DNA of 42,519 nucleotides from a virus. The translations under genes and the position numbers were made by a program. The number at the start of each line of letters is the position of its first letter. Position 1 is the stretch's first letter. Under the pieces are notes generated by a model. That model ran no database searches. It worked only from the letters and a program-made list of their open reading frames with translations, and was not told the origin of the DNA. The stretch spans positions 1 through 42,519 of IMG/VR virus record IMGVR_UViG_3300031576_000126, one strand, 5' to 3'. Positions 7,175 through 42,519 of the stretch are shown piece by piece.

Positions 7175-7654
7175 ATGCCGTATAAAAATAAAGAAGACAG
7201 GGCAAGAAATGATAAAATTTATAGAATAAAAAATAAAGCCAGAAAAAACGCTTTAAAAGTTAAATGGCATCACAACAACAGAAAAAAGGCATTAGAAATT
7301 AATAACAAATCTTTTCAGAAATATAAATACAAGCCACACAATATTCTAAAAATCATTAAAGGAAATGCAAAGAAACGTGGACGAAAAATAGATTTGACAA
7401 AAGAGATTTTTGTTATGTGGTACAATAAACAAATACAGACGTGTGCATACTGTGGTATAAAGGCTTCTAATCTAAAAAAATATAATGGTATCAAAAGATT
7501 AACTATCGACAGAATTGACAACTCGCAAGGATATTTATTAAAAAATATAACACTTGCCTGTGCTTTATGCAACAAAGTTAAGTCAGATATTTTTACAGCA
7601 AAAGAGATGTGTTTATTATCAGAATTAATAAGAAAAAAATGGCGGTACCTTTAA
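7175..7654 (+). CDS. HNH homing-type endonuclease
   Basis: A 159-aa protein with a very basic N-terminus (KNKEDRARNDKIYRIKNKARK) and a C-terminal HNH module: CAYCGIKAS (first CxxC), RLTIDRIDNSQGY (the D-R-I-D-N core) and NITLACALCNKVKSD (second CxxC). This layout is that of free-standing phage HNH homing nucleases that spread by cutting phage genomes lacking them. It stands alone at the border between capsid and sugar genes and has AT-rich codon use, consistent with mobility. It overlaps the next gene by 16 bases. Confidence 0.85.
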   Translation: MPYKNKEDRARNDKIYRIKNKARKNALKVKWHHNNRKKALEINNKSFQKYKYKPHNILKIIKGNAKKRGRKIDLTKEIFVMWYNKQIQTCAYCGIKASNLKKYNGIKRLTIDRIDNSQGYLLKNITLACALCNKVKSDIFTAKEMCLLSELIRKKWRYL

Positions 7655-9093
7655 TTAGTGTTATTTGTACAACGTACAAACGTCCTAAAATGCTGAAAAG
7701 GGCAGTAAAATCAGTTTTGAAGCAAACATTCAAAAACTGGGAATTAATAATAGTAGATGATTTTTCAAATGATGAAACAAAAAAGATTTGTGAAAGTTTT
7801 GTTCGAGAGGACAGTAGGATACGGTATTTTGAGCTTCAGTCTAATAATGGGGTGCACTCATTTGGTAAAAATGTGGGCATTAAGGAAGCTCGGGCGAATT
7901 TAATCGCCTATTTAGATGATGATAATGCGTATAGGAGGGATCATCTTCAGGTTCTGTACAAGTATTTAGGAAATAATGATATTGTTTACGGAGACAGACT
8001 GTTGATTGACGAAAGCGGGTATGTTGCAAAAATGTTTGGTAAACAAAAACAATCTGTTGGTGTTCGTTCAGATTTTAGTGCACAACTTTTATCTGAAATG
8101 AACTTTATCGATACGTCAGACATTCTTGTCAAAAAAGATAAAATAGTAGAAATTGGCGGGTGGGACGAATCTCTTCCTAAGTTTGCAGATTGGAATTTTT
8201 TCGTCAGACTCGCAAAGAGTGGGGCTCGATTTAAACGTATTCCCATAATTATTACGGATTATTACGTTCATTCGGGGTGTAATTCTTTTAAACATCCACA
8301 ACCAAGAAACCCAAATACAGGAAAGGAGATGCCAACTTTTAAACCTGATGATTGCTATGTTTGGCCTAATAAAACACTCTTTGGGGAAAAACCAAAGTCG
8401 AAAGTTGCTGTATTTACTCTTACAATGAGTCGCCTTGAGTATACACAGATAATGTATGACTCAATGGTAAAAAATGCTGGGTATGAGTTTGATTGGTTTG
8501 TTGTTGATAATGGATCCACTGATGGAACTCCAGATTGGGTTGGAGAAAAGGCAAAATTTCTTGTACGAAATGAATACAATTTAGGAATATCAAAGGGCTC
8601 TAATCAAGCACTTGATAAAATAGGGGACGAGTACGACATTATCATAAAAGTAGACAACGATTGTGAGTTTGAGACGGAAAACTGGTTAAAAGATACGGTT
8701 GACCTTATAGAAAAACAGCATGGACTTGTCCTTTCTCCAAGAGTTGAGGGTCTTCGTGACTCACCAGGGGGCGTACCAAGAACACAATATTTTTATATAG
8801 GGGATGAACTTCTTGGTATTGTTCCCCATGTGGGAGGGATATGCGTTGCTGCTCATAAATCTGCGTATGATAAATTTAGGTGGGAAGATAATGATTTTCT
8901 CCACGGAGAACAAGATTATGTATTTTCTCAACATTGTAAACGGATTGGTAAGATGTTGTGTTACTATGAAAAACACATTGTTGAGCACATGTTCACGACG
9001 GAGGGTCAGCTGAAAAGAAGTCCCGAGTACTTTGAAAATAGGAGTAAATTAAAAACTACAAAATATGAAAGTTTTGCAAATAATACCAAATAA
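7639..9093 (+). CDS. Two-domain glycosyltransferase (GT2, GT-A fold)
   Basis: 484 aa from the ATG at 7639 (the frame extends up to a GTG at 7609). It has two GT-A domains in tandem. The first starts VPLISVICTTYKRP, with IIVDDFSNDET and the metal-binding YLDDDNA. The second (about residues 257-450) has VAVFTLTMSRLEYT, WFVVDNGSTDGT and IIKVDNDCEFE. Each has an acidic DxD-type motif for a nucleotide-sugar/metal complex, so it may add two sugars in succession, as in bifunctional GT2 enzymes. It opens the sugar module and overlaps the next gene by 29 bases. Confidence 0.92.
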   Translation: MAVPLISVICTTYKRPKMLKRAVKSVLKQTFKNWELIIVDDFSNDETKKICESFVREDSRIRYFELQSNNGVHSFGKNVGIKEARANLIAYLDDDNAYRRDHLQVLYKYLGNNDIVYGDRLLIDESGYVAKMFGKQKQSVGVRSDFSAQLLSEMNFIDTSDILVKKDKIVEIGGWDESLPKFADWNFFVRLAKSGARFKRIPIIITDYYVHSGCNSFKHPQPRNPNTGKEMPTFKPDDCYVWPNKTLFGEKPKSKVAVFTLTMSRLEYTQIMYDSMVKNAGYEFDWFVVDNGSTDGTPDWVGEKAKFLVRNEYNLGISKGSNQALDKIGDEYDIIIKVDNDCEFETENWLKDTVDLIEKQHGLVLSPRVEGLRDSPGGVPRTQYFYIGDELLGIVPHVGGICVAAHKSAYDKFRWEDNDFLHGEQDYVFSQHCKRIGKMLCYYEKHIVEHMFTTEGQLKRSPEYFENRSKLKTTKYESFANNTK

Positions 9094-9850
9094 GGGTTGG
9101 TGTCTCGATAAACTCTTCAGTTTGATAAAACCGACGGACGATATCCAGATTTCTAAATTTTATATGGATACTGGGAATACAGACATATACGAAGACTGTG
9201 ATATCATCCACTTTCATTTCTGGGCTAACATGCCAGAATACAAAATGAAACCAACTATTGTAACTATCCAACATATTGAGTTCAAAGATGAAATTGAAAT
9301 AATCACAAGGCTAAAGAGAGGTAATCCTGATATAATCATCGCAGCAAATAATCACTCCCATAATATATTAAAGAGACATGGATTACAAAGTGTTATTATT
9401 CGAAATACGACAGAAGTTAAGCCTGTAATTGTTGGGTACCTTGGACTAGATACGGAAGCAGAAAGACATTATAAAAATTATGAAGTTATTGATGAGGCGT
9501 GTCGTATCCTGGGACTTTTATGTGATGGACAGCGAAGAAATAGGCCCGAACTTAAATTCACGGAAGATGAACTTGATAGGTGGTACCGATCATTAAATGT
9601 GTTTGTTACAGCGAACTCTCTTCCTGGTTCGACTCCTGCGATGGAGGCTCTCGCGTGCGGAACCCCAGTTATTGCAACACCTATTTCGCTTTCTCCCCAA
9701 GAATGGAATGTAACATATTTTGACGGAACAGTTGAAGATCTTGTTCGAAAATTAAAAAACTTTATTCCAAAGTTTATAATAATACCAGAAGAATATTCGA
9801 AAAAACATCTTGAATTATATAAATTAGCACAAGATAAATTTTACAAATGA
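9065..9850 (+). CDS. Glycosyltransferase, GT-B fold (GT4-like)
   Basis: A 261-aa retaining-type transferase, short for the family. The N-terminal lobe contains CDIIHFHFWANMPEY. The C-terminal nucleotide-sugar lobe has FVTANSLPGSTPAMEALACG followed by TPVIAT, where the glutamate of MEALACGTPV is the conserved EX7E-type residue. The N-terminal domain seems reduced compared with full GT4 enzymes (about 350-400 aa). Its start lies inside the previous gene and its stop overlaps the next ATG (ATGA), indicating tight coupling. Confidence 0.8.
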   Translation: MKVLQIIPNKGWCLDKLFSLIKPTDDIQISKFYMDTGNTDIYEDCDIIHFHFWANMPEYKMKPTIVTIQHIEFKDEIEIITRLKRGNPDIIIAANNHSHNILKRHGLQSVIIRNTTEVKPVIVGYLGLDTEAERHYKNYEVIDEACRILGLLCDGQRRNRPELKFTEDELDRWYRSLNVFVTANSLPGSTPAMEALACGTPVIATPISLSPQEWNVTYFDGTVEDLVRKLKNFIPKFIIIPEEYSKKHLELYKLAQDKFYK

Positions 9851-10773
9851 ATTATCTAATTATCGGTGGGGCTGGATTTATTGGTTCTCATATAGTTGAC
9901 AAGTTAATAGAGAAAGGACACACGGTAACTGTTTTTGATAACCTTATAAATGGAAACAGATTATTCGTTAATAAGGGGGCAGTCTTTACATGGGGGGATA
10001 TACGAAATTATAGTGACATAGAAAGAATTTTAAAAGGAGAACACTTTGATAGATGTATAAATCTTGCAGCTCAACCATTTATTCCTAAATGTTACGAAGA
10101 TCCGATACTCTTTTTTGAAACAAACGCAAACGGAGCTCTAAATGTTCTTCTTGCGTGTGAAAAGTTCAAAGTAGATAGAGTTCTTCAATACGCGTCAGCA
10201 GAAGAATATGGAACACAAACAGGAAAAATATCTGAGGAGACACCAATTAGACCACAGAGTACATACGGGGTTTCAAAAGTTGCGGCGGATTATCTGTGCC
10301 AAGTCCGCCTCCGAGAATCTGGGATTAGGGTAATTTCTCTACGGCAATTTAATTGTTATGGCCCAAGAGAAACACACGAATATGTAATCCCAGAGATAAT
10401 TAGACAGGCCTCAGAATCTAATAGTATATACCTCGGAAATATAAAATCTGAAAGAGATTTTTTATATGTTGAAGATGCGGCCGAATATGCGATTGAATTG
10501 CTCGAAATGGGGGTTCCTGGTGAAATATATAATTTAGGAAGTTCATCGTGTATTTCTGTTGAAGATCTCGCACATAAAATAGGTGGACTTTTTGGGCATA
10601 AAAATGTGTTTATCCAAATAGATTCAAATAAATTACGACCGTGGGACATTGAAAGGCTTGAATCTGACAATACAAAGATACATAAGGTTGTCTCATTTAG
10701 GCCAAAAGTAGATTTTGATATTGGATTAAAGAAAACAATAGAGTATTTTGAAAAATATGGTTGGGACTTTTGA
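9847..10773 (+). CDS. NDP-sugar epimerase/4,6-dehydratase-like SDR
   Basis: A 308-aa extended short-chain dehydrogenase/reductase. GGAGFIGSH (7-15) is the NAD(P)-binding glycine motif; the catalytic set is S117 (in YASAEEYG), E119/E120 and YGVSK (Y140, K144). Segments YVIPEIIRQ and IYLGNIKSERDFLYVEDAAEY, with the C-terminal LRPWDIERLESDNTKI, resemble GDP-mannose 4,6-dehydratases more than galactose epimerases. A product 4-keto-6-deoxysugar would be a fitting substrate for the aminotransferase next door. Substrate identity is inference. ATGA overlap with the gene before. Confidence 0.85.
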   Translation: MNYLIIGGAGFIGSHIVDKLIEKGHTVTVFDNLINGNRLFVNKGAVFTWGDIRNYSDIERILKGEHFDRCINLAAQPFIPKCYEDPILFFETNANGALNVLLACEKFKVDRVLQYASAEEYGTQTGKISEETPIRPQSTYGVSKVAADYLCQVRLRESGIRVISLRQFNCYGPRETHEYVIPEIIRQASESNSIYLGNIKSERDFLYVEDAAEYAIELLEMGVPGEIYNLGSSSCISVEDLAHKIGGLFGHKNVFIQIDSNKLRPWDIERLESDNTKIHKVVSFRPKVDFDIGLKKTIEYFEKYGWDF

Positions 10774-11644
10774 GAAAGAATTTTCTCGATTTTGTAAAGC
10801 AAAATACGGTGTTGGATGTAATTCTGGAACATCTGCTCTTACCCTTGCTCTTGCTTCTCTTGGGATTGGTATTGGGGACGAGGTAATAGTTCCTGAATTT
10901 ACAATGATTGCGACTGCGTGGGCGGTTACATACCTTGGGGCAACCCCTATATTTGTAGACTGTGATAACAGTTTGAATATAGATATAAACAAAATAAAAC
11001 CAACAAAGAAAACAAAGGCAATCCTTGTTACGCACGTGTACGGACGACTCGTCGATGTTTCTAAGTTGAGGAAGTTTGGGCTTCCAATAATAGAAGATGC
11101 AAGCGAGGCTCACGGTGCCCGCTTGAGAGGCCTCATCTCTTGTTTTTCGTTATACAAGAATAAGATAATCCATGCGGAAGAGGGAGGTGTTTGTGTAACT
11201 AACAGCAAGAAACTTGCTAACAAAATGAGAGATCTTCGTAATATGAGCTTTGGGAAAAAGAATACATACTACCATAAACAACTCGGTTTTAATTTTAGGA
11301 TACCAGAAACAATGGCCAAACTTGCCCTTAAAAGTTTGAGAAAATATGAAAAGAACATAAAGAAAAGACGGCAGGTGGAATCTTGGTATAATGAATACAT
11401 TCCAGAAAAAATGAAAATGCTAAAAAGAGATTTTGTGTGGGTATACGATATAAAGAAACAATTCAAAGACAGTATGTACAAGATTGGGGGTCGTCCTTTT
11501 TTTAAACCAATGTCTATGCAACCTATGTATTTTAAAAGTTACAAAAACTTGAATGCGTATTCATGGTCAAAAACAGGAAGTTATCTTCCTGTGAATGAGA
11601 AAATGACAAAAAGGGAGGTTCGGCTAATTTGTAAAAATATATGA
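10757..11644 (+). CDS. DegT/DnrJ-family PLP aminotransferase, perosamine-synthase-like
   Basis: About 295 aa from ATG 10757 (open from TTG 10748), so it lacks roughly 30 N-terminal residues of typical members. Family features: GCNSGTSAL (PLP phosphate contact), VIVPEFTMIATA, PIIEDASEAHGA (the aspartate that pairs with the PLP ring) and FSLYKNKIIHAEEGG, where K136 is the Schiff-base lysine. That last motif resembles the GNKTITTGEGG of GDP-perosamine synthases. It would convert a 4-keto-sugar to an amino-sugar. The C-terminal part is also short. It overlaps the dehydratase gene by 17 bases. Confidence 0.85.
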   Translation: MVGTFEKEFSRFCKAKYGVGCNSGTSALTLALASLGIGIGDEVIVPEFTMIATAWAVTYLGATPIFVDCDNSLNIDINKIKPTKKTKAILVTHVYGRLVDVSKLRKFGLPIIEDASEAHGARLRGLISCFSLYKNKIIHAEEGGVCVTNSKKLANKMRDLRNMSFGKKNTYYHKQLGFNFRIPETMAKLALKSLRKYEKNIKKRRQVESWYNEYIPEKMKMLKRDFVWVYDIKKQFKDSMYKIGGRPFFKPMSMQPMYFKSYKNLNAYSWSKTGSYLPVNEKMTKREVRLICKNI

Positions 11645-12150
11645 GCTCTCAACTAAGAAGTATTTTAAACAGTTTTCTCGAGGGGGTTGCTATAAAATTA
11701 GATCTCCAAGAAAAAAACATCCTCGAGATTGGGATAGCTGGGGATGATAAACCAAGTGGCTCGTACAAATTCTTCGGAAAAGGGAATGAGTGGACAACGA
11801 TGGACATAAATGAAAAATGGCTTCCAGGTGTTGTTGGAGATATTACGGACGCACCCTTTGAGGATAATACTTTTGATTTGATTATAATGACACAGGTTTT
11901 AGAACATATTTGGGATTTTAGAAGGGCCCTTTCAGAGTTATTTAGAATATCTAAAGATTATGTCATTGTTGATGTTCCATTTATGTATCCATTCCACCAA
12001 GATGATATGAGACAAACAACATGGGATAACTGGGACGACTATTGGAGATTTACACCGTCCGCTTTTAAAAAGCTCTTACTTGAGGCGGGATTTAAGGATG
12101 TCAAAATATTATATAATGATGCTCTAACTTTTGCCGTATGTCAAAAATAA
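11641..12150 (+). CDS. SAM-dependent methyltransferase (type 11)
   Basis: A 169-aa class I methyltransferase. Motif I is ILEIGIAGDD (about 27-36), the acidic end of strand 2 is in TTMDINEKW, and DNTFDLIIMTQVLEHI is the motif IV/V region of the Methyltransf_11 family. The C-terminal WRFTPSAFKKLLLEAGFKDV is typical of sugar- or lipid-modifying members. It likely methylates the sugar or glycan made by the neighbours. The start overlaps the aminotransferase stop (ATGA), and its end overlaps the deacetylase start by 13 bases. Confidence 0.85.
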   Translation: MSSQLRSILNSFLEGVAIKLDLQEKNILEIGIAGDDKPSGSYKFFGKGNEWTTMDINEKWLPGVVGDITDAPFEDNTFDLIIMTQVLEHIWDFRRALSELFRISKDYVIVDVPFMYPFHQDDMRQTTWDNWDDYWRFTPSAFKKLLLEAGFKDVKILYNDALTFAVCQK

Positions 12151-12791
12151 AACAAACATTCATCTTTGATTTTGACGATTTTTCGTCAACACGTCCAGGG
12201 ATGGAATACTTGAAGAAGATGAAAGAGCATTATCCTAATTTTAAGTGCACCTTATTTACAGTTCCTTTTTCATCGATGTATGTTACAAATGGTGTTGATG
12301 TTGATAAGTTGTACGAATGGGCTGAAATTGTAAAGGAAGAATCTGACTGGTTAGAAATAGCAGTTCATGGTTTTGTTCATACAAAGGGCGAGTGTCTTCT
12401 TCCTAAAGATAAGGCGCGTACACTGATAAAGGCCTCTGAGAATTTATTTAAAAAAATAAAACTTCCATTTGTAAAGATATTTAAGGCACCATATTGGCAA
12501 ATGTCAAAAGAATTTGAGGAGGTTCTTCTTGAAGAAGGATATGTGAAGGCGATAGATAGGAATAATCCTCTTGTATATACGCCTATAAAAACATATACAT
12601 GGACATGGTCAATGGAAGAACCTATTCCGACGTACCATACAGTAAAGGCTCATGGACATGTGTGGGAAACACCAAATGGAATAAATAATGTTCTCCCTAA
12701 TTTGTTAAAGATTCCAACTGATGTCGACTTTAAATTTATATCTGAATATTTAGAAGAAAATGGAGTCATTGTCGAACGAGTACAAGCCTAA
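12138..12791 (+). CDS. Polysaccharide deacetylase-like protein (NodB fold)
   Basis: 217 aa with carbohydrate-esterase-4-like motifs: FDFDDFSS (11-17, catalytic and metal aspartates), VHGFVHTKG with H77 and H81 as metal ligands, FKAPYWQMS (the R/K-x-P-Y/W groove) and KAHGHVWE near the C-terminus. Enzymes of this fold remove N-acetyl groups from amino sugars in glycans or peptidoglycan. Within this module it may trim an acetamido sugar. It has no signal peptide, so it acts in the cytoplasm or on the virion. Confidence 0.8.
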   Translation: MSKIKQTFIFDFDDFSSTRPGMEYLKKMKEHYPNFKCTLFTVPFSSMYVTNGVDVDKLYEWAEIVKEESDWLEIAVHGFVHTKGECLLPKDKARTLIKASENLFKKIKLPFVKIFKAPYWQMSKEFEEVLLEEGYVKAIDRNNPLVYTPIKTYTWTWSMEEPIPTYHTVKAHGHVWETPNGINNVLPNLLKIPTDVDFKFISEYLEENGVIVERVQA

Positions 12792-13245
12792 TGTTATCCA
12801 CCCCGTTTATGTTCCCGAGGGTTCTGAAACCAAAGAGAACACAGAAACGTCGAGGAAAAAAGAATATTCAGATAACTCAAAGAGGGAAGGAATAACCAAG
12901 GAATTAAGTGTAGATGAAAAACCACTTTCTCTTATAGATAAATATATTGTTATTGGTGAATTAAACGCAGAAAAGATTGTTGAAATGAATATTGATAATT
13001 CTGCTGAAAAGGTAAAAGTCATCGATACTGTCATAAAAATGGAAATTGAAAAACACGGATGGAAATTGAATGTTAAGAGCTATAAAGAAGCCCTTCAGAT
13101 AATAAAAAACAAACTTGGAATTACGGAAAATGAAACACCTCTTTCACAGATAAATAAAATGCACACTATTTTGAAGATAGTCTTAGAGGGTAAATTATTA
13201 GAAGAAAAGGTGGGAATAACTTTAAATAAAAAAATAAAATGGTAA
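12760..13245 (+). CDS. Hypothetical protein in the sugar module
   Basis: A 161-aa protein I do not recognise. The first 50 residues are polar and probably disordered (TKENTETSRKKEYSDNSKRE); the rest is helical (KPLSLIDKYIVIGELNAEKIVEMN, INKMHTILKIVLEGKLLEE). Its start lies 32 bases inside the deacetylase gene and its end overlaps the next gene by 7 bases, so it is part of the operon. It has no enzyme motif. Since the flanks are sugar and then virion genes, it could be a structural acceptor or chaperone. Confidence 0.7.
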   Translation: MESLSNEYKPNVIHPVYVPEGSETKENTETSRKKEYSDNSKREGITKELSVDEKPLSLIDKYIVIGELNAEKIVEMNIDNSAEKVKVIDTVIKMEIEKHGWKLNVKSYKEALQIIKNKLGITENETPLSQINKMHTILKIVLEGKLLEEKVGITLNKKIKW

Positions 13246-14306
13246 GAATAGGCGGTAATATTTTGTTCATTCATAATTCCACAGGGAGTCGTCTTTATAG
13301 GATACTTCCACAAGCTAAGTATATGGGCTCTGTGGGATGGGACGTAAAAGTTCGTGGTCTTCGTAATGGAAAGACGGGAGGGGTTTCGAGTGATCTCCTC
13401 GAGTGGGCAGATCTTGTTGTCGTTGAGATGGTCTACTCTCCCGACTTTATAAAGGCATGTAGAAAGGCTGGATGTAAAATAGTATATGAGATTGATGATT
13501 TAATGCAATGGGTTCCGAAAGAACATTACGCATACAAAGAAATGAATTGGTGGAGGACATTTTTGACATTTTACTGCCTTACGAAAGTTGATGCTATTGT
13601 TGTTACAAATGAAAAACTTAAAGAGGCATACAAATGGTTCAACTCAAATATTGTAGTTTTTTCAAATTATATAGATTTAGAATATTGGGCTAAGGAAACT
13701 TACAAAAATACAGGAAAGAAAATACGTCTAGGGTGGGCAGGAGGAAATTCACATAAGGAAGATTTAGAATTTATTGCCCCCGTTCTGAAGAATATCCTCA
13801 AAAAATATCCGAATGTTAAATTTGTAGCGACTGGATTTGGTGGAAAGGAGTCTGATGATCCGTGGACGAAATACAATTATGGAAGTTCCCCGTTTAAGGA
13901 TTTACCACAGGATCAGTATGAATATTCTCTCGGTGCGCCAATGGAAGTTTTTTCTTCGAAGTTGGCCACGATGAGGTACGATATAGGGATAGCTCCTGTT
14001 GTCCAGAATAAGTTTTCAGAGTGCAAAACACCATGTAAAGCTCTTGAATATGGAATTAATTGGGTACCTGGGGTTTACTCAGAGTTTTTATACAAAGACG
14101 CTGTTATTGACGGGGTTACGGGATACCTTGCAAAAGAAGACCCGAAAGAGTGGGAAGAAAAAATATCGCTTTTAATAGAAAACAAAGAAAGAGAAAAGAT
14201 GGGATTGTCGGCATTTCAGTATGTCGTTGATAAATTCTCTTTTAATCAGCATGGTCATAAGTGGCATGAATTATACGATAAAGTATTAAAAAATGGAATG
14301 GAATAA
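13239..14306 (+). CDS. Glycosyltransferase, GT-B fold
   Basis: A 355-aa protein with two Rossmann-like lobes. N-terminal: NILFIHNSTGSRLYRILPQ, VVVEMVYSPDFI, CKIVYEIDDLM. C-terminal: KKIRLGWAGGNSHKEDLEFI, a nucleotide-sugar lobe start, then DIGIAPVVQNKFSECKTPCK with ALEYG (the family's acidic donor-site motif) and VIDGVTGYLA. This pattern is that of GT4-like transferases found in surface-polysaccharide clusters. It is the last enzyme of the sugar module; its stop overlaps the tail adaptor start by 14 bases, so sugar and virion genes share transcription. Confidence 0.87.
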   Translation: MVRIGGNILFIHNSTGSRLYRILPQAKYMGSVGWDVKVRGLRNGKTGGVSSDLLEWADLVVVEMVYSPDFIKACRKAGCKIVYEIDDLMQWVPKEHYAYKEMNWWRTFLTFYCLTKVDAIVVTNEKLKEAYKWFNSNIVVFSNYIDLEYWAKETYKNTGKKIRLGWAGGNSHKEDLEFIAPVLKNILKKYPNVKFVATGFGGKESDDPWTKYNYGSSPFKDLPQDQYEYSLGAPMEVFSSKLATMRYDIGIAPVVQNKFSECKTPCKALEYGINWVPGVYSEFLYKDAVIDGVTGYLAKEDPKEWEEKISLLIENKEREKMGLSAFQYVVDKFSFNQHGHKWHELYDKVLKNGME

Positions 14307-18340: not shown

Positions 18341-19318
18341 ATGCCTACTGACCCAAAAGATAGTTTAATCCCAGACGCGGTTTCAATGATTAAACAAGAA
18401 ATGAAGTCTCAACATAAGGACTATGTTCAAAGAGACTATCAAAACCTTTCTGATGTTTTTGGAATGATAGAAGTTGTTACTATTGTTCCAACACACACTC
18501 CATTAAACATGTTTGACCAGTTTAAGATACTCGTTGACGATATAGATAACCCATCAGTTAGAAGGCTGTATGTATATAATTACAAGGCACGAGTTTGGGA
18601 TTCCATGTCTTCAGTTGAGTCTTCAGACCAATTGAATACACGATCAATACGAATAAATGGAGTTAATCAGTATGCCTCTATTGCAGACGCGTCACAAACA
18701 GGACTTGATTTAAGTACAAATTTTACAGTAGAAGCATGGGTGCAATTTTCGACATTACCAAGCACTTTTGGAGACTCTTCCATTGTTGCAAAGTGGAACA
18801 ACATGGACACAACACAGCAATCGTATTTAATGCAGGTAGACTCTGCGAATCAGTTACAAATTTTATTTGAGGATAGTGGTGGAAATCAGACAGTAGCCTC
18901 TTTATCATCTGGAATACCTAGTTTAACTACTAATGTGTGGCATCATTATGCTGTTATAGCAAATATTTCTGTTCCGTCTTTTACTTTTATGATAGATGGA
19001 GCTGTGATATATAATGCAGTAACAAACTCAGCCGCGACATCAATAAAAAACTCAACAACTCCAGTAACAGTAGGAGCACGAAACAGTGGAAGTGTTGGTG
19101 TAAATTTTTTACATGGGTTTATAGACGCACCACGAATTTGGAATTTGGCACGAAGTACCGCCGAAATAGCAACAAATTATCAAACATATGTATCGTCAAC
19201 GTCTTCTGGATTGGTTTCTGAGTGGAGATTTGACAGTGATCTTTTGGATTTTACATCAAACAATAACGATTTAACAAATAACGGTAGCTTTACATTTTCT
19301 ACCGACGTTCCATTCTAA
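18341..19318 (+). CDS. LamG/concanavalin-like receptor-binding candidate
   Basis: 325 aa. An N-terminal attachment region (1-95, SMIKQEMKSQHKDYVQRDYQ, probably coiled-coil-like, then a strand region) precedes a LamG_3-type lectin domain (about 100-325): SIRINGVNQYASIADAS, FTVEAWVQFSTLP, WHHYAVIANIS, FLHGFIDAPRIWNLARSTAE, LVSEWRFDSD. LamG domains bind glycans, so this is a likely host-recognition or virion-surface protein. Alternatively it decorates the head. Confidence 0.8.
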   Translation: MPTDPKDSLIPDAVSMIKQEMKSQHKDYVQRDYQNLSDVFGMIEVVTIVPTHTPLNMFDQFKILVDDIDNPSVRRLYVYNYKARVWDSMSSVESSDQLNTRSIRINGVNQYASIADASQTGLDLSTNFTVEAWVQFSTLPSTFGDSSIVAKWNNMDTTQQSYLMQVDSANQLQILFEDSGGNQTVASLSSGIPSLTTNVWHHYAVIANISVPSFTFMIDGAVIYNAVTNSAATSIKNSTTPVTVGARNSGSVGVNFLHGFIDAPRIWNLARSTAEIATNYQTYVSSTSSGLVSEWRFDSDLLDFTSNNNDLTNNGSFTFSTDVPF

Positions 19319-20843: not shown

Positions 20844-23695
20844 TGGGACGATTTGGAATCCCAGAACAAAAGAGAAGTAAATACGGTGTTCCTGAGTGGC
20901 CGTCATTCTTTGATGTTCTCGGTGATACGTACGAAGACACTGTTAAAAAAATGAGTGATTTTTCAACTGGTTTTGTCCAGTCTTTTGCTCGTAGTTTTGG
21001 TATTGGTGCTCAAGTTCTCCACGATAGAAGTCTTGGTGCAGAATTTAAACCACAAGGAAAATTTCAAAAAGAACTGTTCGGAACAGACAAACCATTTGGA
21101 ATAAAATCCACAGGGAAAGATACCAGGATTGCATTTGGTGGGGATGAAAAAAAAGATAGAAAATTCTTTGACCCAGCTTTGGGGTTACTCCTTGTTGCTT
21201 CTGATATTGTTCCTCTAGGTGGGCCAAAGAAGGTGTTTCTTGGAAAAGCACTACAAGTAACAGATGTAAAAACAGGAAAAGTAATTTTAAAGTCTATTCT
21301 CGAGTCTGATTTTGAAAAACTTAAAACTATTATCGATAAAGGGGAAGATGTTATTGATGGTCTTAACTATAAAATAGTTGACGCAACGAAAGATAACCTG
21401 AAAGCAACAGGGCAGACACTACAAGGTATCGCAAAAATGGGAGATGTTCCTGTTAAAGCTGGTAACATACGTCTTGATAAGTTTGTCCTACCTGTTGAGT
21501 CTATTCATGATATGGCTAGAATAGTTAAAGAAAACGATGATTTTATAAAACAAAGGCGTGGAGTACAGTCATTTGAAGATACTATAGCTTTGTCTGACGA
21601 CATACCCTTTGCTCCAAAATTAAAACCTGGTTCTATATTAAACGCTGAAGAACAAATATCTCTTGGGAGACAAGTTGCAACATCAAAAGACAGACTTGAT
21701 GAATTAAGTAAATTAATAAAATCTGGACAAAATACAGATTTAGATTTACTCCTTTTCGAAAGACTTAGACAGGAACAAGCCGCCCTTTTGGGTATGTATT
21801 ATGGTGTTCTTACTGAAACAGCCAGAGCATTAAATGCTTCTAAGATTTTAAAAAGGGCAGATAAGTTTAACGACCCAGCTCTTATAAAAAAAGCTCTTGA
21901 TTTATCTGGCGGTAGAGAAAAAGTAGAAAAGATAGCGTTACTTTTATCTTCTTTTGATTCTGCTGATGTTCTTGGTAAGTATAAGTTTTTGAAATCACTA
22001 AATAAACCAAAAGCTACGGATTGGGCTTCGTGGTATTGGTATACAAACTTACTCTCTGGGCCGAAGACTCAACTCAGAAACATTGGTGGCTCATTGTCAA
22101 ATATAACTTTTGGAGTTGCGGCTCGACCGTTTGCGGCAGGATCAGATGCTTTCAGGTCTTTCCTTTCTGGTTCAGACAGAACTGTTTTTCTTGGTGAGTC
22201 TCCAAACCAAATCTACGGATTATTTGCTGGTATTAGGCCTGGATTTACGAAAGCAAAATACCTTCTAAAGAACGGCTTTACGATGGATGATGTTGCTTCT
22301 TTAGATTTTAGACCCCCAGAGGTTGCTGGTGGAATATGGACGAACCTTGTCGGGAGAAGTCTTGAAGCTACTGACACATTCTTTAGGTCTATATCAACTT
22401 CCGCAGAATTACATTCAAGGGGGTATACAGCTGGAAGACTTGCTCAAAAACAAGGAGATGAGTTGCATGACTTTATCCGTCGGTATATTTCAGACCCACC
22501 AGTTAAAGATATGGAAGAAATCGCCAACATGGGAAAGCGTGATGTTTTTAGAAATACACCAGGGCCAATTGTTTCTGCTTTAGTTAAAGCTAAAAGTGAT
22601 ATTGAGTTTTTTCACAATGGTAAAACGTACAAAGTATTCAACCCTATAAAACTTGTTACTCCTTTTATAACAACACCAGCGAATATAATGAAGTCATCTT
22701 TAGAGGCTTCCCCAGTTGGGTTTGTAACAGCTGTTACAAAAAAGACATCACGAGAAACATCTTTAACATTAGGGAAAGCAGCATTAGGAACTACGTTGTT
22801 AACCCCTCTTTCTCTTCTTGCTGCTGAGGGTAGGATATCTGGTTCTGGGCCACGAGATAGGGAAGTAAGAGACCTTTTATATTCAACAGGATGGAGGCCA
22901 AATTCAATTAAGATAGGAGATAAGTGGTATGGGTATAATAACTTCCAGCCACTTGCATTACCTTTATCTGTAATCGCAAATACATTCGAAGCGTATATGT
23001 ACGACGGAGACGAAGAAGGTGTCTCAATACCAGAAATACTTACAAAAACTATAGACAGCGTTCTCCAACAAAGTTATCTTTCTGGTCTTTCATCAATCTT
23101 GGAAGCAATAAACAATCCTGAAAGTTATGGTGAAGCATGGGCTGAAAGATTTCTAACAACACTTAGACCACTCTCTTCTCTTCAAAGTCAATTAGCTAGA
23201 GCGGTAGATGAAACAGTAAGAGCTCCAGATACAGTAAAAGAGGCTTTTAAATCTCAAACACCAGGACTATCTGACGATATTCGCCCACGGAGAACAGCAT
23301 TAGGAGAGGAATCTTCTCGAGACACAGGATTACCAGAAGCTATTGAATTTTTGTCAAACTTTTTATCTCCTGTAGACATTTCAAAATCAAAGGACTCTGA
23401 GTTGTCTAACGAGTTATTACGGCTTCGTGATGTTGTACAGGTTGGATTCCCAAGTAAAACAATAACGATTGGTAAAAATAAAGTTAGATTAGACCCAGAC
23501 GAGTATGATTTTCTATTAAAAATAGCTGGGGAAAGTACAAAAAAAATACTTGATAGGGCCGTAGAGAGTCCTCGGTGGGATAAAAAACCAGATAGTGTTA
23601 AGGCTGAATTCATAAAGAGAATTGTCGAGGAACAAAGAGCTGTTGCAAAAAAGAAACTATTACGAGAATTTCCACATTTAAGAAATGCCAGATAA
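20843..23695 (+). CDS. Large internal virion/ejection protein
   Basis: The largest protein of the genome, 950 aa, mostly helical. A central segment, ETARALNASKIL (about 331-342) and the hydrophobic WYWYTNLLSGPKTQLRN (about 398-414), matches what I know from large podoviral internal proteins (large polyvalent/ejection protein type). The C-terminal third contains helices with hydrophobic patches (ALGTTLLTPLSLLAAEG). Such proteins are packed in the capsid and leave with the DNA to form a channel through the envelope. There is no lytic motif, so wall-binding probably falls to the LysM neighbour. Confidence 0.75.
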   Translation: MGRFGIPEQKRSKYGVPEWPSFFDVLGDTYEDTVKKMSDFSTGFVQSFARSFGIGAQVLHDRSLGAEFKPQGKFQKELFGTDKPFGIKSTGKDTRIAFGGDEKKDRKFFDPALGLLLVASDIVPLGGPKKVFLGKALQVTDVKTGKVILKSILESDFEKLKTIIDKGEDVIDGLNYKIVDATKDNLKATGQTLQGIAKMGDVPVKAGNIRLDKFVLPVESIHDMARIVKENDDFIKQRRGVQSFEDTIALSDDIPFAPKLKPGSILNAEEQISLGRQVATSKDRLDELSKLIKSGQNTDLDLLLFERLRQEQAALLGMYYGVLTETARALNASKILKRADKFNDPALIKKALDLSGGREKVEKIALLLSSFDSADVLGKYKFLKSLNKPKATDWASWYWYTNLLSGPKTQLRNIGGSLSNITFGVAARPFAAGSDAFRSFLSGSDRTVFLGESPNQIYGLFAGIRPGFTKAKYLLKNGFTMDDVASLDFRPPEVAGGIWTNLVGRSLEATDTFFRSISTSAELHSRGYTAGRLAQKQGDELHDFIRRYISDPPVKDMEEIANMGKRDVFRNTPGPIVSALVKAKSDIEFFHNGKTYKVFNPIKLVTPFITTPANIMKSSLEASPVGFVTAVTKKTSRETSLTLGKAALGTTLLTPLSLLAAEGRISGSGPRDREVRDLLYSTGWRPNSIKIGDKWYGYNNFQPLALPLSVIANTFEAYMYDGDEEGVSIPEILTKTIDSVLQQSYLSGLSSILEAINNPESYGEAWAERFLTTLRPLSSLQSQLARAVDETVRAPDTVKEAFKSQTPGLSDDIRPRRTALGEESSRDTGLPEAIEFLSNFLSPVDISKSKDSELSNELLRLRDVVQVGFPSKTITIGKNKVRLDPDEYDFLLKIAGESTKKILDRAVESPRWDKKPDSVKAEFIKRIVEEQRAVAKKKLLREFPHLRNAR

Positions 23696-24008
23696 ATGGG
23701 TAAGAATTAAATCAGGCGATGAACGAGACTCTGCGTCATTTGACCAGACACTTCGTCTAAAGAAAGTAGCTCCATATGGATGGAGTGGTTCCTCTGCTTT
23801 TCAGTTAAGAGTTAATTCCTCTGGAGAACTTATAATAAGTTCTGGTGCTGGAATACCAACGTGGGATTACGCTTCTCTAACCGAAGCCGCAACTACAGAT
23901 ACATGGGTATTTAAAACAGGCGGTTCTGGTGGCACAACAGTAAAGACTATTGTAATTACATATACAAGTTCTTCTAAAGCGACGATAAGTAACATAACTT
24001 CAACATGA
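23685..24008 (+). CDS. Small virion-associated hypothetical protein
   Basis: 107 aa, beta-rich (RVNSSGELIISSGAGIPTWD, TDTWVFKTGGSGGTTVKTIV). It overlaps the ejection-protein gene by 11 bases and the fibre gene by four (ATGA), so it belongs to the tail operon. The Gly/Thr-rich C-terminal strand pair suggests a small fibre-associated protein. No family recognised with certainty. Confidence 0.6.
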   Translation: MPDKWVRIKSGDERDSASFDQTLRLKKVAPYGWSGSSAFQLRVNSSGELIISSGAGIPTWDYASLTEAATTDTWVFKTGGSGGTTVKTIVITYTSSSKATISNITST

Positions 24009-35408: not shown

Positions 35409-35672
35409 ATGAAAAGGATACGAACTGGTATAAAAGACAAAAACGGACTTGACATATTCCTTGGTGATATGGTAGAGTATAAGTATGGAACTATATATAG
35501 GCGTGGAGTAGTAAAATTTGGACACCACAGTACCGACGAAGGTAACTATTATTCTGGGAAGGCGTACGGGTTCTATATATACAAAGAATCAGAGAATAAA
35601 GTAGAAAATCCATTTGATGAGGTTGTATCGTTAAATTATACAGACAATTTAAAAAAACAATTTGAAGCATGA
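35409..35672 (+). CDS. YopX-family protein
   Basis: 87 aa from the ATG at 35409 (frame also open from 35349). It has the YopX pattern: GIKDKNGLDIFLGDMVEYKY, RRGVVKFGHHS, AYGFYIYK. YopX proteins are small SH3-barrel-like proteins of phages with unknown function. Stop overlaps the methyltransferase start (ATGA). Confidence 0.8.
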   Translation: MKRIRTGIKDKNGLDIFLGDMVEYKYGTIYRRGVVKFGHHSTDEGNYYSGKAYGFYIYKESENKVENPFDEVVSLNYTDNLKKQFEA

Positions 35673-36267
35673 AAATCTTGAATTTGTATTGTGGAATTGG
35701 AGGGAATAGACTTCTTTGGGGAGACGAGCATGAAATTACTGCCATTGAAATAGACCCTAAAATAGCTGAAATATACCAAGAGCATTTTCCTAAAGATAAA
35801 GTTATTGTTACAGATGCCCACCAATATCTTTTAGACCACTTCCAAGAGTATGATTTTATATGGAGTAGTCCACCTTGTCCTAGTCATTCAAGAATACGAA
35901 AAGTTTTTGAAAAACAAAATAAGCCAATATATCCTGATATGAAACTTTACGAGGAGATTTTACTTTTACAAAATTATTTTAAAGGAAAGTGGTGTGTAGA
36001 GAATGTTATAGCTTTCTACCCCCCCTTATGCCACCAATAGAATTTAATAAGCATTGGTTTTGGACAAATTTTGCATTAAGTAAAATAAAAGAGATTGATA
36101 GAGGAATGGGAAAAAATGAAAACATAAAAGATTTATATAAAAGAAAGGGTTTTAATCTATCAAAGTATAAAGGAATAGATAAAAGAAAAACATTAAGAAA
36201 TTGTGTTGAACCAACAACCGCCAAACACATATTTGATTGCGCCTTTAAGAATATGTCCCTCTTCTAG
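35669..36267 (+). CDS. DNA cytosine-C5 methyltransferase, split by a frame change at C7
   Basis: Frame 35669-36040 holds motif I (LNLYCGIGGNRLLWG), motif II (AIEID), motif IV (WSSPPCPSHSR, the PC with the nucleophile) and motif VI (WCVENVIAFY). It stops just after a run of seven Cs (36019-36025). Frame 35989-36267 (-1) continues LMPPIEFNKHWFWTNF and ends NCVEPTTAKHIFDCAF (motif X-like). Joining them at the C run yields one compact methyltransferase of about 200 aa. C-CCC-CCC is a canonical slippery heptamer, so a programmed frameshift, phase variation or a sequence error may explain it. Confidence 0.8.
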
Positions 36268-37507: not shown

Positions 37508-37786
37508 ATGAATGAAGAAATAAAACCAGCATATCAATTTCTACTTAATCTTGGGTTAGATCTAAAAAAGATTGTAGACGATAAAAGAGCCTTATACAAT
37601 ACAAATGCAATTTTTAGCGATGTTTTCTATATACATGAATTTGGAACGCTTATGTATAAATTTTTAAATAGCGATTTAACCAAAGAACAGTTAAAAGAGA
37701 AAATAAGTGGAAAACTCACTTATGGATTTAACCTTATAAACAACGAGATCAAGAAAGACAAAGAAGTCCAAATAGATGAAAACTAA
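37508..37786 (+). CDS. Hypothetical protein, 92 aa
   Basis: Helical and charged (AYQFLLNLGLDLKKIVDDKR, LTKEQLKEKISGKLTYGFN). No family recognised. Overlaps the next gene by 11 bases, implying co-expression. Confidence 0.6.
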   Translation: MNEEIKPAYQFLLNLGLDLKKIVDDKRALYNTNAIFSDVFYIHEFGTLMYKFLNSDLTKEQLKEKISGKLTYGFNLINNEIKKDKEVQIDEN

Positions 37787-38123
37787 ATTCTCTGGTATAA
37801 AAAAGAAATACTCTACGGGTGGAACACGCGACAATAACGAAGGGAAGGGGGCGCACGAATTGATATCTCCTTTTATGATTAAAAGACTCGCTTGTGTATA
37901 CGAAAGAGGCGCGAAGAATCACGGAGCACGTAATTGGGAGAAGGGTGTCCCGTTTTCATGGTGTACACAATCTGCGTTACGGCATATTTTTCAATATCTT
38001 GAAGGGAGAACAGATGAAGACCACTTAGGACAGGCAATATGGAATTTATCAGCAATAATACACTTTGAAGAACTTAATAGGAAAGATTTAGATGATTTAC
38101 CAAAATGGACGAAACAAAAATAA
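37776..38123 (+). CDS. dATP/dGTP diphosphohydrolase-like protein (DUF5664 type)
   Basis: 115 aa. Pattern STGGTRDNNEGKGAHELISP, RLACVYERGAKNHGARNWEK, SALRHIFQYLEGRTDEDHLG, QAIWNLSAIIHFEEL corresponds to the family I know as phage dATP/dGTP diphosphohydrolase N-terminal domain. The conserved E-R-G, N-W, R-H and D-E-D-H residues suit metal-dependent nucleotide hydrolysis (all-alpha NTP-PPase-like). Next to nrdJ, this suggests pool control. A small helical nucleotide-binding protein without activity is the alternative. Confidence 0.7.
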   Translation: MKTKFSGIKKKYSTGGTRDNNEGKGAHELISPFMIKRLACVYERGAKNHGARNWEKGVPFSWCTQSALRHIFQYLEGRTDEDHLGQAIWNLSAIIHFEELNRKDLDDLPKWTKQK

Positions 38124-38600: not shown

Positions 38601-38655
38601 TTGTGTGAAGGTAACTATGTATATATGACGTATATATGACCCCATATATAAAAAA

Positions 38656-38688
38656 GCCTCATACCGCCCTGCTGTAATAGTATGAGGC
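38656..38688 (-). terminator. Terminator of the leftward operon (possibly bidirectional)
   Basis: GCCTCATAC (38656-38664) pairs with GTATGAGGC (38680-38688), a perfect 9-bp stem with 15-base loop. On the minus strand it is followed by a T6 run (AAAAAA on plus), 40 bases past the glutamine amidotransferase stop, so it ends that operon. On the plus strand CTTTCT follows, a weaker terminator. Confidence 0.85.
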
Positions 38689-38727
38689 CTTTCTATGTGT
38701 TCTATGGTTTGTACTGGTTTAGATGTT

Positions 38728-39813
38728 TTATCTATTCGCTGTAAGGACAAGAAGATTATAGAGTTCCATTTTAAGTTCTTTTAGTTTTTCGTTATAATCC
38801 TCTTTCTCTTTCAATAATTCTTCTACTAGGTTTGTGTTGTTTCTTGAATCTACTATAAAGGCTTCGCAAGTTTCTATAATGTTTTCCAATTCCTCTACAT
38901 CACTTTCCAATTTTTCTATTTGTAACTCATGATCATTTCCATAACTCTTATTGTCTCCATTATAGTCTCCTTTATTGTCTCCATTATCATAATAAGTAGA
39001 TATGGGGGCATTTAGTTGTGTTGAGGGTAGTCTACTGCTCCAATAATCATACTCGGTATTATATCCAGTATATCCAATAGTCCTCATCTTACCTATATCT
39101 ACGGGATAGTGTTCTATATTGTGTACGTCCGTTTTTGATATTTTGTACATTTCATCAACGAGTACACTATTATTTCCGCTCTCGGAGGAGATACAAAAAA
39201 AGTCTTTTTGTGTTTGGTATTTCAACGGGTTTCCTGTGTTCCTTCCAAAAAAGATATTTTTAACTGTACTGTTCGTATATTGTATCGCTATGAAAGCAGA
39301 AGATCCAATAGCTTCAATGCTATTTTGTTTCTTCTCAAGAAAAAGGGCTACTTCTATACTAAATGCCTCTGAATCGTTATAATAATTTTCTTGCGATATG
39401 TAAGTATTTGTTTTTGTTTTGTATTCCGTTTTCTTCTTCATTTCGGTTGAGTAAGGTATCCTCATTTTCTTGTGCTTCTCTTTTAGTTCATCATCATTTG
39501 AGACGATACCATTATGTAGAAAAAGGTATTCATTCTTTAGTGTCCTACTCTTTATGTGTATCGGGTGTGCCATTTCCTTTAAGTTTGGAGTGCTTGTTGG
39601 GTATCTGTGATGGAAGATTATAAAGTTAGCGTCCTCTTTCTCCATTTTTTTAAAAATATCTTTCTCACTTCTCTGAATGGAAACTACCTTGTTGTCTTTT
39701 ATTGCCACATACCCGAAGCCATCATTTCCGCGATCTTTTTGCATATGGTATCTTTTTTGAATCGCCCTTGTTGGATTTTTGTCTTTTTGGAGTACAGCTA
39801 TTATCCCGCACAT
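38728..39813 (-). CDS. Class II glutamine amidotransferase (Ntn-type)
   Basis: 361 aa. It starts MCGIIAVLQ, so C2 becomes the N-terminal nucleophile after Met removal. Family motifs: DRGNDGFGYVA (27-37), FHHRYPTSTPN (68-77), HPIHIKS and LFLHNGIVSN (98-106). It releases ammonia from glutamine. No synthetase domain is attached; instead residues 285-355 are low-complexity (DNGDNKGDYNGDNK) followed by a coiled coil (KLESDVEELENIIETCEAFI). The ammonia must go to another protein, and the obvious partner is the amidoligase whose stop lies one base before this ATG. Confidence 0.87.
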   Translation of the reverse strand: MCGIIAVLQKDKNPTRAIQKRYHMQKDRGNDGFGYVAIKDNKVVSIQRSEKDIFKKMEKEDANFIIFHHRYPTSTPNLKEMAHPIHIKSRTLKNEYLFLHNGIVSNDDELKEKHKKMRIPYSTEMKKKTEYKTKTNTYISQENYYNDSEAFSIEVALFLEKKQNSIEAIGSSAFIAIQYTNSTVKNIFFGRNTGNPLKYQTQKDFFCISSESGNNSVLVDEMYKISKTDVHNIEHYPVDIGKMRTIGYTGYNTEYDYWSSRLPSTQLNAPISTYYDNGDNKGDYNGDNKSYGNDHELQIEKLESDVEELENIIETCEAFIVDSRNNTNLVEELLKEKEDYNEKLKELKMELYNLLVLTANR

Positions 39814-39814
39814 A

Positions 39815-40975
39815 CTAATTATTCTCGTTTATTCTGCTGATAATATAATCTCTTGTGTTGTTAGAAAGCCCGATAATTTCGGATAGTGCTTTTGTTTTTT
39901 TCCGTACGTCGTACACACTTGATAAATTACCTACTTTCCCCGCGAGAGCACTTTTTGATAGGTAGATTATAATTTTCTGGTGTATCTCTATCCACCGTAG
40001 AATCTTCTCTGTATTTATAGTCCCCGAATGGTATCTTATTTCAATAGTACCCCTATCCATAAATAGAGAGTGCAGATTTAGTCCATAGTATCGCATATTG
40101 TCGTATTTTTCAGCCTTTCTTTTTTTTATAGACTCGTACGAGTCGTTATAGTAAAGCTTCTCTATGTTTTCAATAGTATTGAATCTTGACATATCTCTAA
40201 TAGAAAACAGTTTTTCCATTTTTAAGCAAAAATTGTTTTCTCTTCTGCTTTGTGGGAGCATAGAAATGAGTATATCTTCTATAATTGAGTACCCGATGAT
40301 AATGCTCCGAAGTTTCCACGCATTTTTTTTTAACTCTTTTCCCTCTATGTGTAAGTGAAACCCGCAAGACTTGTCTACAGAAAAGGCATTCTTTTGTAAA
40401 AACTTGCATATAAGGCGGATCGTCCTTTCACCTGCTTTTCCCTTTAGTGGTGGGGTTATAATTTCAACGCCATTTTCGGATAATGAGTGATCCTCTGCTA
40501 TTCCTACATAAGATGGCAGTTCATTTACTACCCCGCTTTCGTCAATAACCTCAAGCTCTACTCCGAATGAGTAGTACGGTGGTACAATTCTTCCTGCTTC
40601 TTCCGAAAGGAGGAAGGGTTCTTTTCTATAATTTCTGAAGTATGAAGAATATGGAGGATAATATGTGGTAGAATGTGGAATATTTAGTGCGTCTGCTGGT
40701 GTTGGTTCTGGTGTTTGGTTTCCTATGTTGGCTCTGTAATCATGTATAGTATGAGCAGAACAGAAGCGTATATCTGGTAGATCTAGATCACTTCTGCATT
40801 CTGTACAAGTCATATTCCAGCATACAGCACAGAATACCCCAGAGTAAATGTTTAGACTTCTTGTCCCTAAGTCGGACAACATTTCTGCATTTAGTTCAGA
40901 TGGAAGAAGTACAGCACAGCTTCCCCGTGGTATTTCTTTATGACAAACAGAACAGTTTATATTTCGTGTTGGCAT
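39815..40975 (-). CDS. Amidoligase-family enzyme with N-terminal zinc module
   Basis: 386 aa. Residues 1-75 carry four ligand pairs: CSVC (8/11), CAVC (49/52), CTEC (57/60), CSAH (72/75), spaced C-x2-C-x37-C-x2-C-x4-C-x2-C-x11-C-x2-H as in RING/FYVE cross-brace fingers. A Pro/Tyr-rich linker (85-133) follows. The core has FGVELEV (137-143), AEDHSL and VEIITPPL (160-177), CGFHLHIEG (204-212) and MDRGTIEIRYHSGTI (306-320), the pattern of glutamine-synthetase-fold amidoligases that form amide bonds between a carboxylate and an amine. Substrates are unknown. Confidence 0.8.
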   Translation of the reverse strand: MPTRNINCSVCHKEIPRGSCAVLLPSELNAEMLSDLGTRSLNIYSGVFCAVCWNMTCTECRSDLDLPDIRFCSAHTIHDYRANIGNQTPEPTPADALNIPHSTTYYPPYSSYFRNYRKEPFLLSEEAGRIVPPYYSFGVELEVIDESGVVNELPSYVGIAEDHSLSENGVEIITPPLKGKAGERTIRLICKFLQKNAFSVDKSCGFHLHIEGKELKKNAWKLRSIIIGYSIIEDILISMLPQSRRENNFCLKMEKLFSIRDMSRFNTIENIEKLYYNDSYESIKKRKAEKYDNMRYYGLNLHSLFMDRGTIEIRYHSGTINTEKILRWIEIHQKIIIYLSKSALAGKVGNLSSVYDVRKKTKALSEIIGLSNNTRDYIISRINENN

Positions 40976-41154: not shown

Positions 41155-41430
41155 TTATGTTCTTTTATTATTTAATAATTCTACAGGGCAACCTTCTTTC
41201 AACCAAAACACAAAGGACATACCATTTTTAGGATTTATTTCTGACATATAAACTTCTTGCTCGGTTGTCCACCTAATCCATAAATCATAAAGCTCGTTTT
41301 CTGTAATTGATTGAATATGACTCGCTATCTGGTATTCATCAAAGTTTTTACCTTTCAAAGCGCCAAGCGTTGGACGTAAAATAGTAGAAAGCCAGTCATG
41401 TGCATATTCTATTTTCTTTTCTTTTTTCAT
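41155..41430 (-). CDS. Hypothetical protein, 91 aa
   Basis: Starts KKEKKIEYAHDWLSTILRPT, with NFDEYQIASHIQSITENELY and a C-terminal MSFVFWLKEGCPVELLNN. Mixed helical, no motif recognised. Part of the leftward operon. Confidence 0.65.
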   Translation of the reverse strand: MKKEKKIEYAHDWLSTILRPTLGALKGKNFDEYQIASHIQSITENELYDLWIRWTTEQEVYMSEINPKNGMSFVFWLKEGCPVELLNNKRT

Positions 41431-42392: not shown

Positions 42393-42519
42393 GTAAAAAG
42401 CACCCAAGAAACTTGACAGACTACCATAAAGTATGATATACTCAAGATACGGATACAGTTCGGCATCCTCGACTGTTCATCACTTCGTGTGGTGAACCGA
42501 GTATGTAAGAGTCTCTTGG
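42393..42519. repeat. Terminal copy of the 127-bp circular-assembly overlap (right)
   Basis: Second copy of bases 1-127. Annotation of the circle should drop one copy; the promoter at 21-50 recurs here at 42413-42442 for this reason only. Confidence 0.9.

Follow-up and report, generated by a model that had tools for sequence, protein, structure and literature searches.

A reduced amidoligase/glutamine amidotransferase gene pair with a putative LIM-like zinc module in a tailed phage genome

The phage cassette and its counterpart in the window

The phage cassette of the SU10/phiEco32 type comprises a COOH-NH2 ligase (PF14395), an Amidoligase_2 protein, a class II glutamine amidotransferase (GATase), a RimK-like ATP-grasp protein and GGCT, and in SU10 it is represented by gp88-gp78. 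Ligases of the glutamine synthetase (GS) fold use ATP to convert a carboxylate to an acyl phosphate, from which transfer to an amine takes place, and class II glutaminases free ammonia from glutamine. The comparative genomics of 2009 is said to have predicted that the amidoligase/GATase cassette modifies host peptides or the cell wall. A ligase that uses ATP and is supplied by a glutaminase is also found in MurT/GatD, which acts in the amidation of peptidoglycan glutamate. This likeness to the proteins described here is one of logic only, since MurT belongs to the Mur ligases and GatD to the class I amidotransferases, both with unrelated folds. Reports that cite the 2009 work suggest that the cassette alters the cell wall or peptides of the host and thereby blocks superinfection (PMC5498523, PMC10580990, PMC11318856, PMC11253131), and for Phage-ZRK32 a role of the amidoligase, GATase, glutathione synthase and GGCT in aiding nitrogen metabolism was proposed (PMC10945688). 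The available text of these five reports describes no enzyme test, and the accessible literature on phage pairs gives no determined substrate or product for the amidoligase/GATase cassette.

The window, which is the whole stretch of DNA analysed here (42,519 bases; virus record IMGVR_UViG_3300031576_000126 of IMG/VR), carries a terminal direct repeat of 127 bases at positions 1-127 and 42393-42519 and is therefore probably a complete phage genome. The presence of genes for a terminase, an SU10-type portal (under the Pfam cut-off), a capsid protein and an SU10-type adaptor indicates that the phage is tailed. No near-identical phage DNA was found. The locus under study consists of the following elements:

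38648..38696, minus strand: GC-rich inverted repeat (arms 38648-38664 and 38680-38696, 15-nt loop) with a T run behind it, which probably terminates the minus-strand unit
38728..39813, minus strand: gene for a stand-alone class II (Ntn) glutamine amidotransferase of 361 aa (open reading frame, profile and fold)
39815..40975, minus strand: gene for an Amidoligase_2 protein (GS-fold COOH-NH2 ligase) of 386 aa with an N-terminal zinc module (open reading frame, PF12224 and Foldseek)
41155..41430, minus strand: small open reading frame of 91 aa upstream of the amidoligase gene, of no family, perhaps on the same transcript as the pair

The hairpin lies outside the list of the consensus terminator scanner because its loop exceeds the limit of 8 nt. 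A single base (39814) separates the amidoligase stop codon from the ATG of the GATase gene, and both open reading frames, their order and their one-base spacing are as the first-pass annotation had described them.

As in SU10, the Amidoligase_2 gene of the window is followed by an adjacent gene for a stand-alone class II GATase, and the portal and adaptor of the window are also of the SU10 type. The SU10 proteins matched the profiles of the window families with E-values of 2e-24 and 2e-35. In contrast to SU10, the window has the two core genes only, its amidoligase bears the N-terminal zinc module, and its GATase has a coiled-coil tail, where the GATase of SU10 extends to 676 aa. PF14395, ATP-grasp and GGCT, of which SU10 has all three and the relative L183 (see below) the first two, were not found among the scanned window open reading frames. 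The window therefore has the cassette in reduced form and does not count as a full member of the type, and for the same reason the phage alone is predicted to be unable to run the full pathway. From its sequence, the pair is best regarded as a version, reduced to two genes, of the cassette known from the SU10/phiEco32, LUZ24 and RIO-1 types of phages. Such a form, without the usual three further enzymes, offers a convenient minimal unit for biochemistry.

For each window protein, the nearest relative found is encoded at locus L183 (IMG/VR 3300020043_004509), by a pair of adjacent genes in one other phage. The L183 GATase was 41% identical to the window GATase in the best segment, and the L183 amidoligase was the sister of the window amidoligase in a quick tree (SH-aLRT 96). 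The two loci share the gene order and a charged helical GATase tail, which is likewise present in the relative L059. In L183, a PF14395 ligase gene and a RimK/R2K ATP-grasp gene adjoin the pair, which is the composition of SU10/phiEco32, whereas neither was found among the scanned open reading frames of the window and the L183 amidoligase is without a zinc module. Since the nearest related pair found does without it, the zinc module is not essential to the pair and was set aside as its hallmark.

A class II GATase gene also adjoins the amidoligase gene in the Arthrobacter phages Waltz and Ottawa, Vibrio phage 275E43-1 and Leptolyngbya phage JY46. When pairing was defined as location on the same strand and within 1.5 kb, a class II GATase accompanied 96 of 195 amidoligase copies, or about half; the copies came from annotated phages and from genomes of IMG/VR and GTDB. 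These findings support the view that an amidoligase and a glutaminase-type GATase work as a functional pair that is conserved in many phages, and the cassette is spread over many phage lineages. The coupling of the two genes proposed at the outset thus recurs in other phage genomes. In contrast, the pathway cannot be called unusual, as it had been, for the cassette is common and appears in the available text of two reports as a predicted modifier of peptides or peptidoglycan (PMC5498523, PMC10580990).

Single-protein scans of IMG/VR returned no close relatives of either window protein, the plasmid search returned distant amidoligases only, and tblastn with the window GATase or the L183 GATase gave no match among annotated phages. 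An amidoligase was present in 0 of 7 records of terminase relatives of the window. Two separate amidoligase-GATase pairs per phage were seen in L059 (676-2682 and 5896-8013) and in L025 (5554-7874 and 9088-10836).

Conserved residues and folds of the two enzymes

Behind its zinc module, the amidoligase had been described as a Pro/Tyr linker followed by a GS-fold core, and both parts were recovered:

39941..40570, minus strand: amidoligase catalytic core, residues 136-345 (conserved columns; pLDDT mostly 80-96)
40571..40750, minus strand: Pro/Tyr-rich linker of low confidence, residues 76-135 (pLDDT below 50 for residues 57-120)

The protein belongs to PF12224 (Amidoligase_2), which it matched with an E-value of 3.4e-29 and 102.9 bits, the curated cut-off being 22. 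The core contains G138-x-E140-x-E142, D162-x-S164, E171, H207-x-H209, R244, R295-Y296, N300 and E312-x-R314-x-H316, and thus has the ExE, DxS, HxH and ExRxH residues of Amidoligase_2. In alignments of 11-36 homologues the columns of these motifs were invariant or nearly so, the invariant ones including G138, E140, D162, S164, E171, H207, H209, N300, E312, R314 and H316. Because all these residues are retained in the window protein, the amidoligase looks active. Its model has the GS-type ligase fold; Foldseek matched it to YbdK (the best match, E 9e-5), glutamine synthetases, gamma-glutamylcysteine synthetase (GCS), GmaS and the depupylase Dop.

The GATase is made up of two recognisable parts:

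39094..39813, minus strand: glutaminase domain, residues 1-240, with C2, R70, H100-N101-G102 and D147 (conserved columns, profile and fold)
38734..38940, minus strand: C-terminal helical hairpin or coiled coil, residues 292-360 (modelled helices 292-322 and 327-360)

In the large GATase alignment (A4), R28-G29, H68, R70, H100-N101-G102 and D147-S148 were invariant and C2 was nearly so, and in a second alignment (A7) C2 was invariant as well. The equivalents of Cys2, Arg70, Asn101-Gly102 and Asp147 expected of an Ntn GATase are all present, and by alignment C2, R70, H100-N101-G102 and D147 correspond to the predicted nucleophile and glutamine site of GlmS-type enzymes. When the single protein was searched against Pfam, GATase_6 scored 19.8 bits (E 8e-4), under the curated cut-off of 27, and the class II assignment therefore rests on the profile and the fold. 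The profile of 25 GATase relatives (A7) matched GlmS (4amv) with an E-value of 1e-23, and the modelled fold matched PurF/GlmS with an E-value of 2e-10. In agreement with the first-pass annotation, Cys2 is intact, the protein has no synthetase domain, and a coiled coil is modelled at its C terminus. In the GATases of L026, L030, L040, L051 and L099, the tail has C-x2-C pairs in place of the coiled coil.

The N-terminal zinc module

The amidoligase has cysteines at positions 8, 11, 20, 49, 52, 57, 60, 72, 190, 204 and 250, and those at the N terminus form, together with H75, the putative zinc module:

40751..40954, minus strand: zinc module, residues 8-75, with the pairs C8,C11 / C49,C52 / C57,C60 / C72,H75 (motif; modelled pLDDT about 35-68)

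The eight-ligand spacing first reported, C-x2-C-x37-C-x2-C-x4-C-x2-C-x11-C-x2-H, was exact by residue positions, with gaps of 37, 4 and 11 between the pairs. Four C-x2-[CH] pairs within 75 residues occurred in 0 of 20,000 shuffles of the amidoligase sequence, and every other window open reading frame had at most two such pairs; a chance cluster of cysteines was ruled out by these two results.

The assignment of this module to the RING/FYVE type is not borne out by its relatives. Whole eight-ligand cross-brace units are expected of RING/FYVE, whereas the homologous modules come as tandem LIM-like two-pair units. The IMG/VR scan added 28 amidoligases with N-terminal C-x2-C arrays, and most arrays in the relatives consist of 2, 3 or 4 regular C-x2-C-x~17-C-x2-C units with linkers of approximately 7 residues. 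These sequential two-pair units amount mostly to six pairs (three units) and in other relatives to four or eight. An array of three units cannot be built from tandem cross-braces, so that the family lends the RING/FYVE label no support. The amidoligase family profile matched LIM domains (CRP1, E 2.7e-5), and the RING/FYVE reading was set aside on these grounds. Two single relatives, L045 and L110, matched LIM with E-values of 2e-4 and 6e-4, narrowly under the cut-off. For the window module, Pfam and PDB sequence searches gave no RING, FYVE or LIM match, residues 1-87 alone matched nothing in the PDB, and the model, at a pLDDT of about 35-68, is too weak to show whether the ligands pair as a cross-brace (1+3/2+4) or sequentially.

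In an alignment of five sequences (the window and four LIM-like relatives), C11, C49, C52, C57, C60 and C72 fell in invariant columns. The window module has the same N-terminal place as the arrays of the relatives, and it differs from their regular units in the 37/4/11 spacing and in the terminal His. To judge from these sequences, it is probably a short, divergent version of the LIM-like arrays of related phages and is predicted to bind zinc.

Amidoligases with LIM-like arrays were found in IMG/VR phages (L025-L033, L099 and others), in the Omnitrophota MAG contig L110, in the Manatee Spring phage MW202733 and in the human-gut scaffold MT839723. As in the window, an N-terminal C-x2-C zinc array stands on an Amidoligase_2 core with a class II GATase adjoining, so that the zinc fusion, like the gene pair, has counterparts elsewhere. 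In the literature covered, which does not extend to the founding 2009 paper, a fusion of a zinc finger or LIM domain with an amidoligase is undescribed. The fusion is recurrent and apparently little-described, and its recurrence offers a way to approach the question of what the enzyme binds. A conserved open reading frame of approximately 100 aa (VILVGFPNSI...YDEYLDFL type) is located between the GATase and the LIM-array amidoligase in L026, L045, L069, L078 and L099, and is absent in the window.

The raw association of the zinc module with the GATase was strong (47/49 with the module compared to 49/146 without it; Fisher p 1e-15) and derived largely from one clade. Phylogenetically independent pairs gave no support in 5 comparisons. 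The two were consequently rejected as independently correlated traits, and because it comes mostly from one clade, their co-occurrence does not serve as independent evidence that they are functionally linked.

Proposed reaction, alternative readings and genome surroundings

As the glutaminase residues and the ligase residues are both intact, a split glutamine-dependent amide-forming enzyme is the simplest reading of the pair. It is probable, by a modest degree, that the pair is a reduced amidoligase/GATase cassette for glutaminase-fed, ATP-driven amide formation on a carboxylate, with the zinc module as an accessory. The GATase, acting as an Ntn glutaminase, would bind and hydrolyse glutamine and free ammonia. 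The amidoligase would use ATP to turn a carboxylate into an acyl phosphate, as in glutamine synthetase, and would join the activated carboxylate to ammonia passed on from the GATase, or to another amine, to give an amide. The zinc module would be an accessory for binding, LIM-like but divergent, and may help to hold the substrate or a partner; the coiled coil of the GATase is probably used for docking or oligomerisation. An envelope or peptide molecule of the host is the most likely substrate. It would be altered early in infection, and such a change could serve, for example, in the exclusion of other phages. The GATase could instead be an Ntn amidohydrolase that trims the product.

Trimming or reversal by the GATase-like enzyme would be part of a self-contained protein or peptide tagging system, in which the zinc module would recruit a specific host or phage protein and the amidoligase would couple an amine or amino acid to a carboxylate on one of the side chains. 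The Pup ligase, a model for such tagging, likewise has the GS fold, and proteins are the usual partners of LIM-type modules; the match of the amidoligase to Dop and the retention of zinc arrays on a large clade of related amidoligases are consistent with this reading. It is nevertheless considered unlikely: no gene for a tag peptide or for a ubiquitin-like or Pup-like protein was noticed adjoining the pair, the GlmS-type glutamine-site residues kept by the GATase favour the supply of ammonia, and the sister pair in L183 is without the module. A stronger version, in which the two proteins would suffice by themselves as a minimal, glutamine-fed enzyme for amidation or tagging and the LIM-like module would pick a specific host protein that the phage covalently marks during infection, is held to be very unlikely.

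A role in small-metabolite or nitrogen metabolism, in which the pair would make or break gamma-glutamyl or other amides and redirect host nitrogen during infection, seems improbable to much the same extent as tagging. The frequent neighbour GGCT in other phages points to it, as do the best fold match, YbdK, which is a gamma-glutamylcysteine-ligase-type enzyme, and the proposal made for Phage-ZRK32 (PMC10945688, in its available text). The GGCT and ATP-grasp genes were, however, not found among the scanned window open reading frames, and a zinc array of a protein-binding type is unexpected on a plain metabolic enzyme. The least probable of the readings is that the pair amidates an acid carried by a sugar or by a hypermodified base, and in this way modifies glycans of the virion or envelope or the bases of the phage DNA. 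The window does contain a sugar-nucleotide/glycosyltransferase cluster and a C5-methylase fragment, and some relatives adjoin ParB-like and methyltransferase genes, but the glycan cluster is approximately 25 kb away, on the other strand and among late genes, and base-hypermodification enzymes were not detected in the window.

The sugar cluster (7609-14306) has the capsid genes on one side and the SU10-type adaptor gene on the other and encodes GT2 and GT1 glycosyltransferases, a GDP-mannose-dehydratase-like epimerase, a DegT aminotransferase, a methyltransferase and DUF2334; in the distant relative L025, the matching place is taken by a glycosyltransferase-like gene. The C5 cytosine methylase open reading frame (35669-36040) covers just the first quarter of the Pfam profile and is overlapped in another frame by a second one (35989-36267), as in a split or frameshifted gene. 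The N-terminal domain of a dATP/dGTP diphosphohydrolase (PF18909) was found at 37776-38123, and no adenylosuccinate-synthetase-like gene was noticed among the scanned window open reading frames. A match to GroES/Cpn10 at 1313-1627 was narrowly over the Pfam cut-off. Only 4 of 29 window genes had a Shine-Dalgarno-like motif 20 bases or less from the start, and the upstream regions were A-rich. In the region of the tail genes, a concanavalin-like lectin fold (Laminin_G_3) was found at 18341-19318 and, under the cut-off, at 23685-24008.
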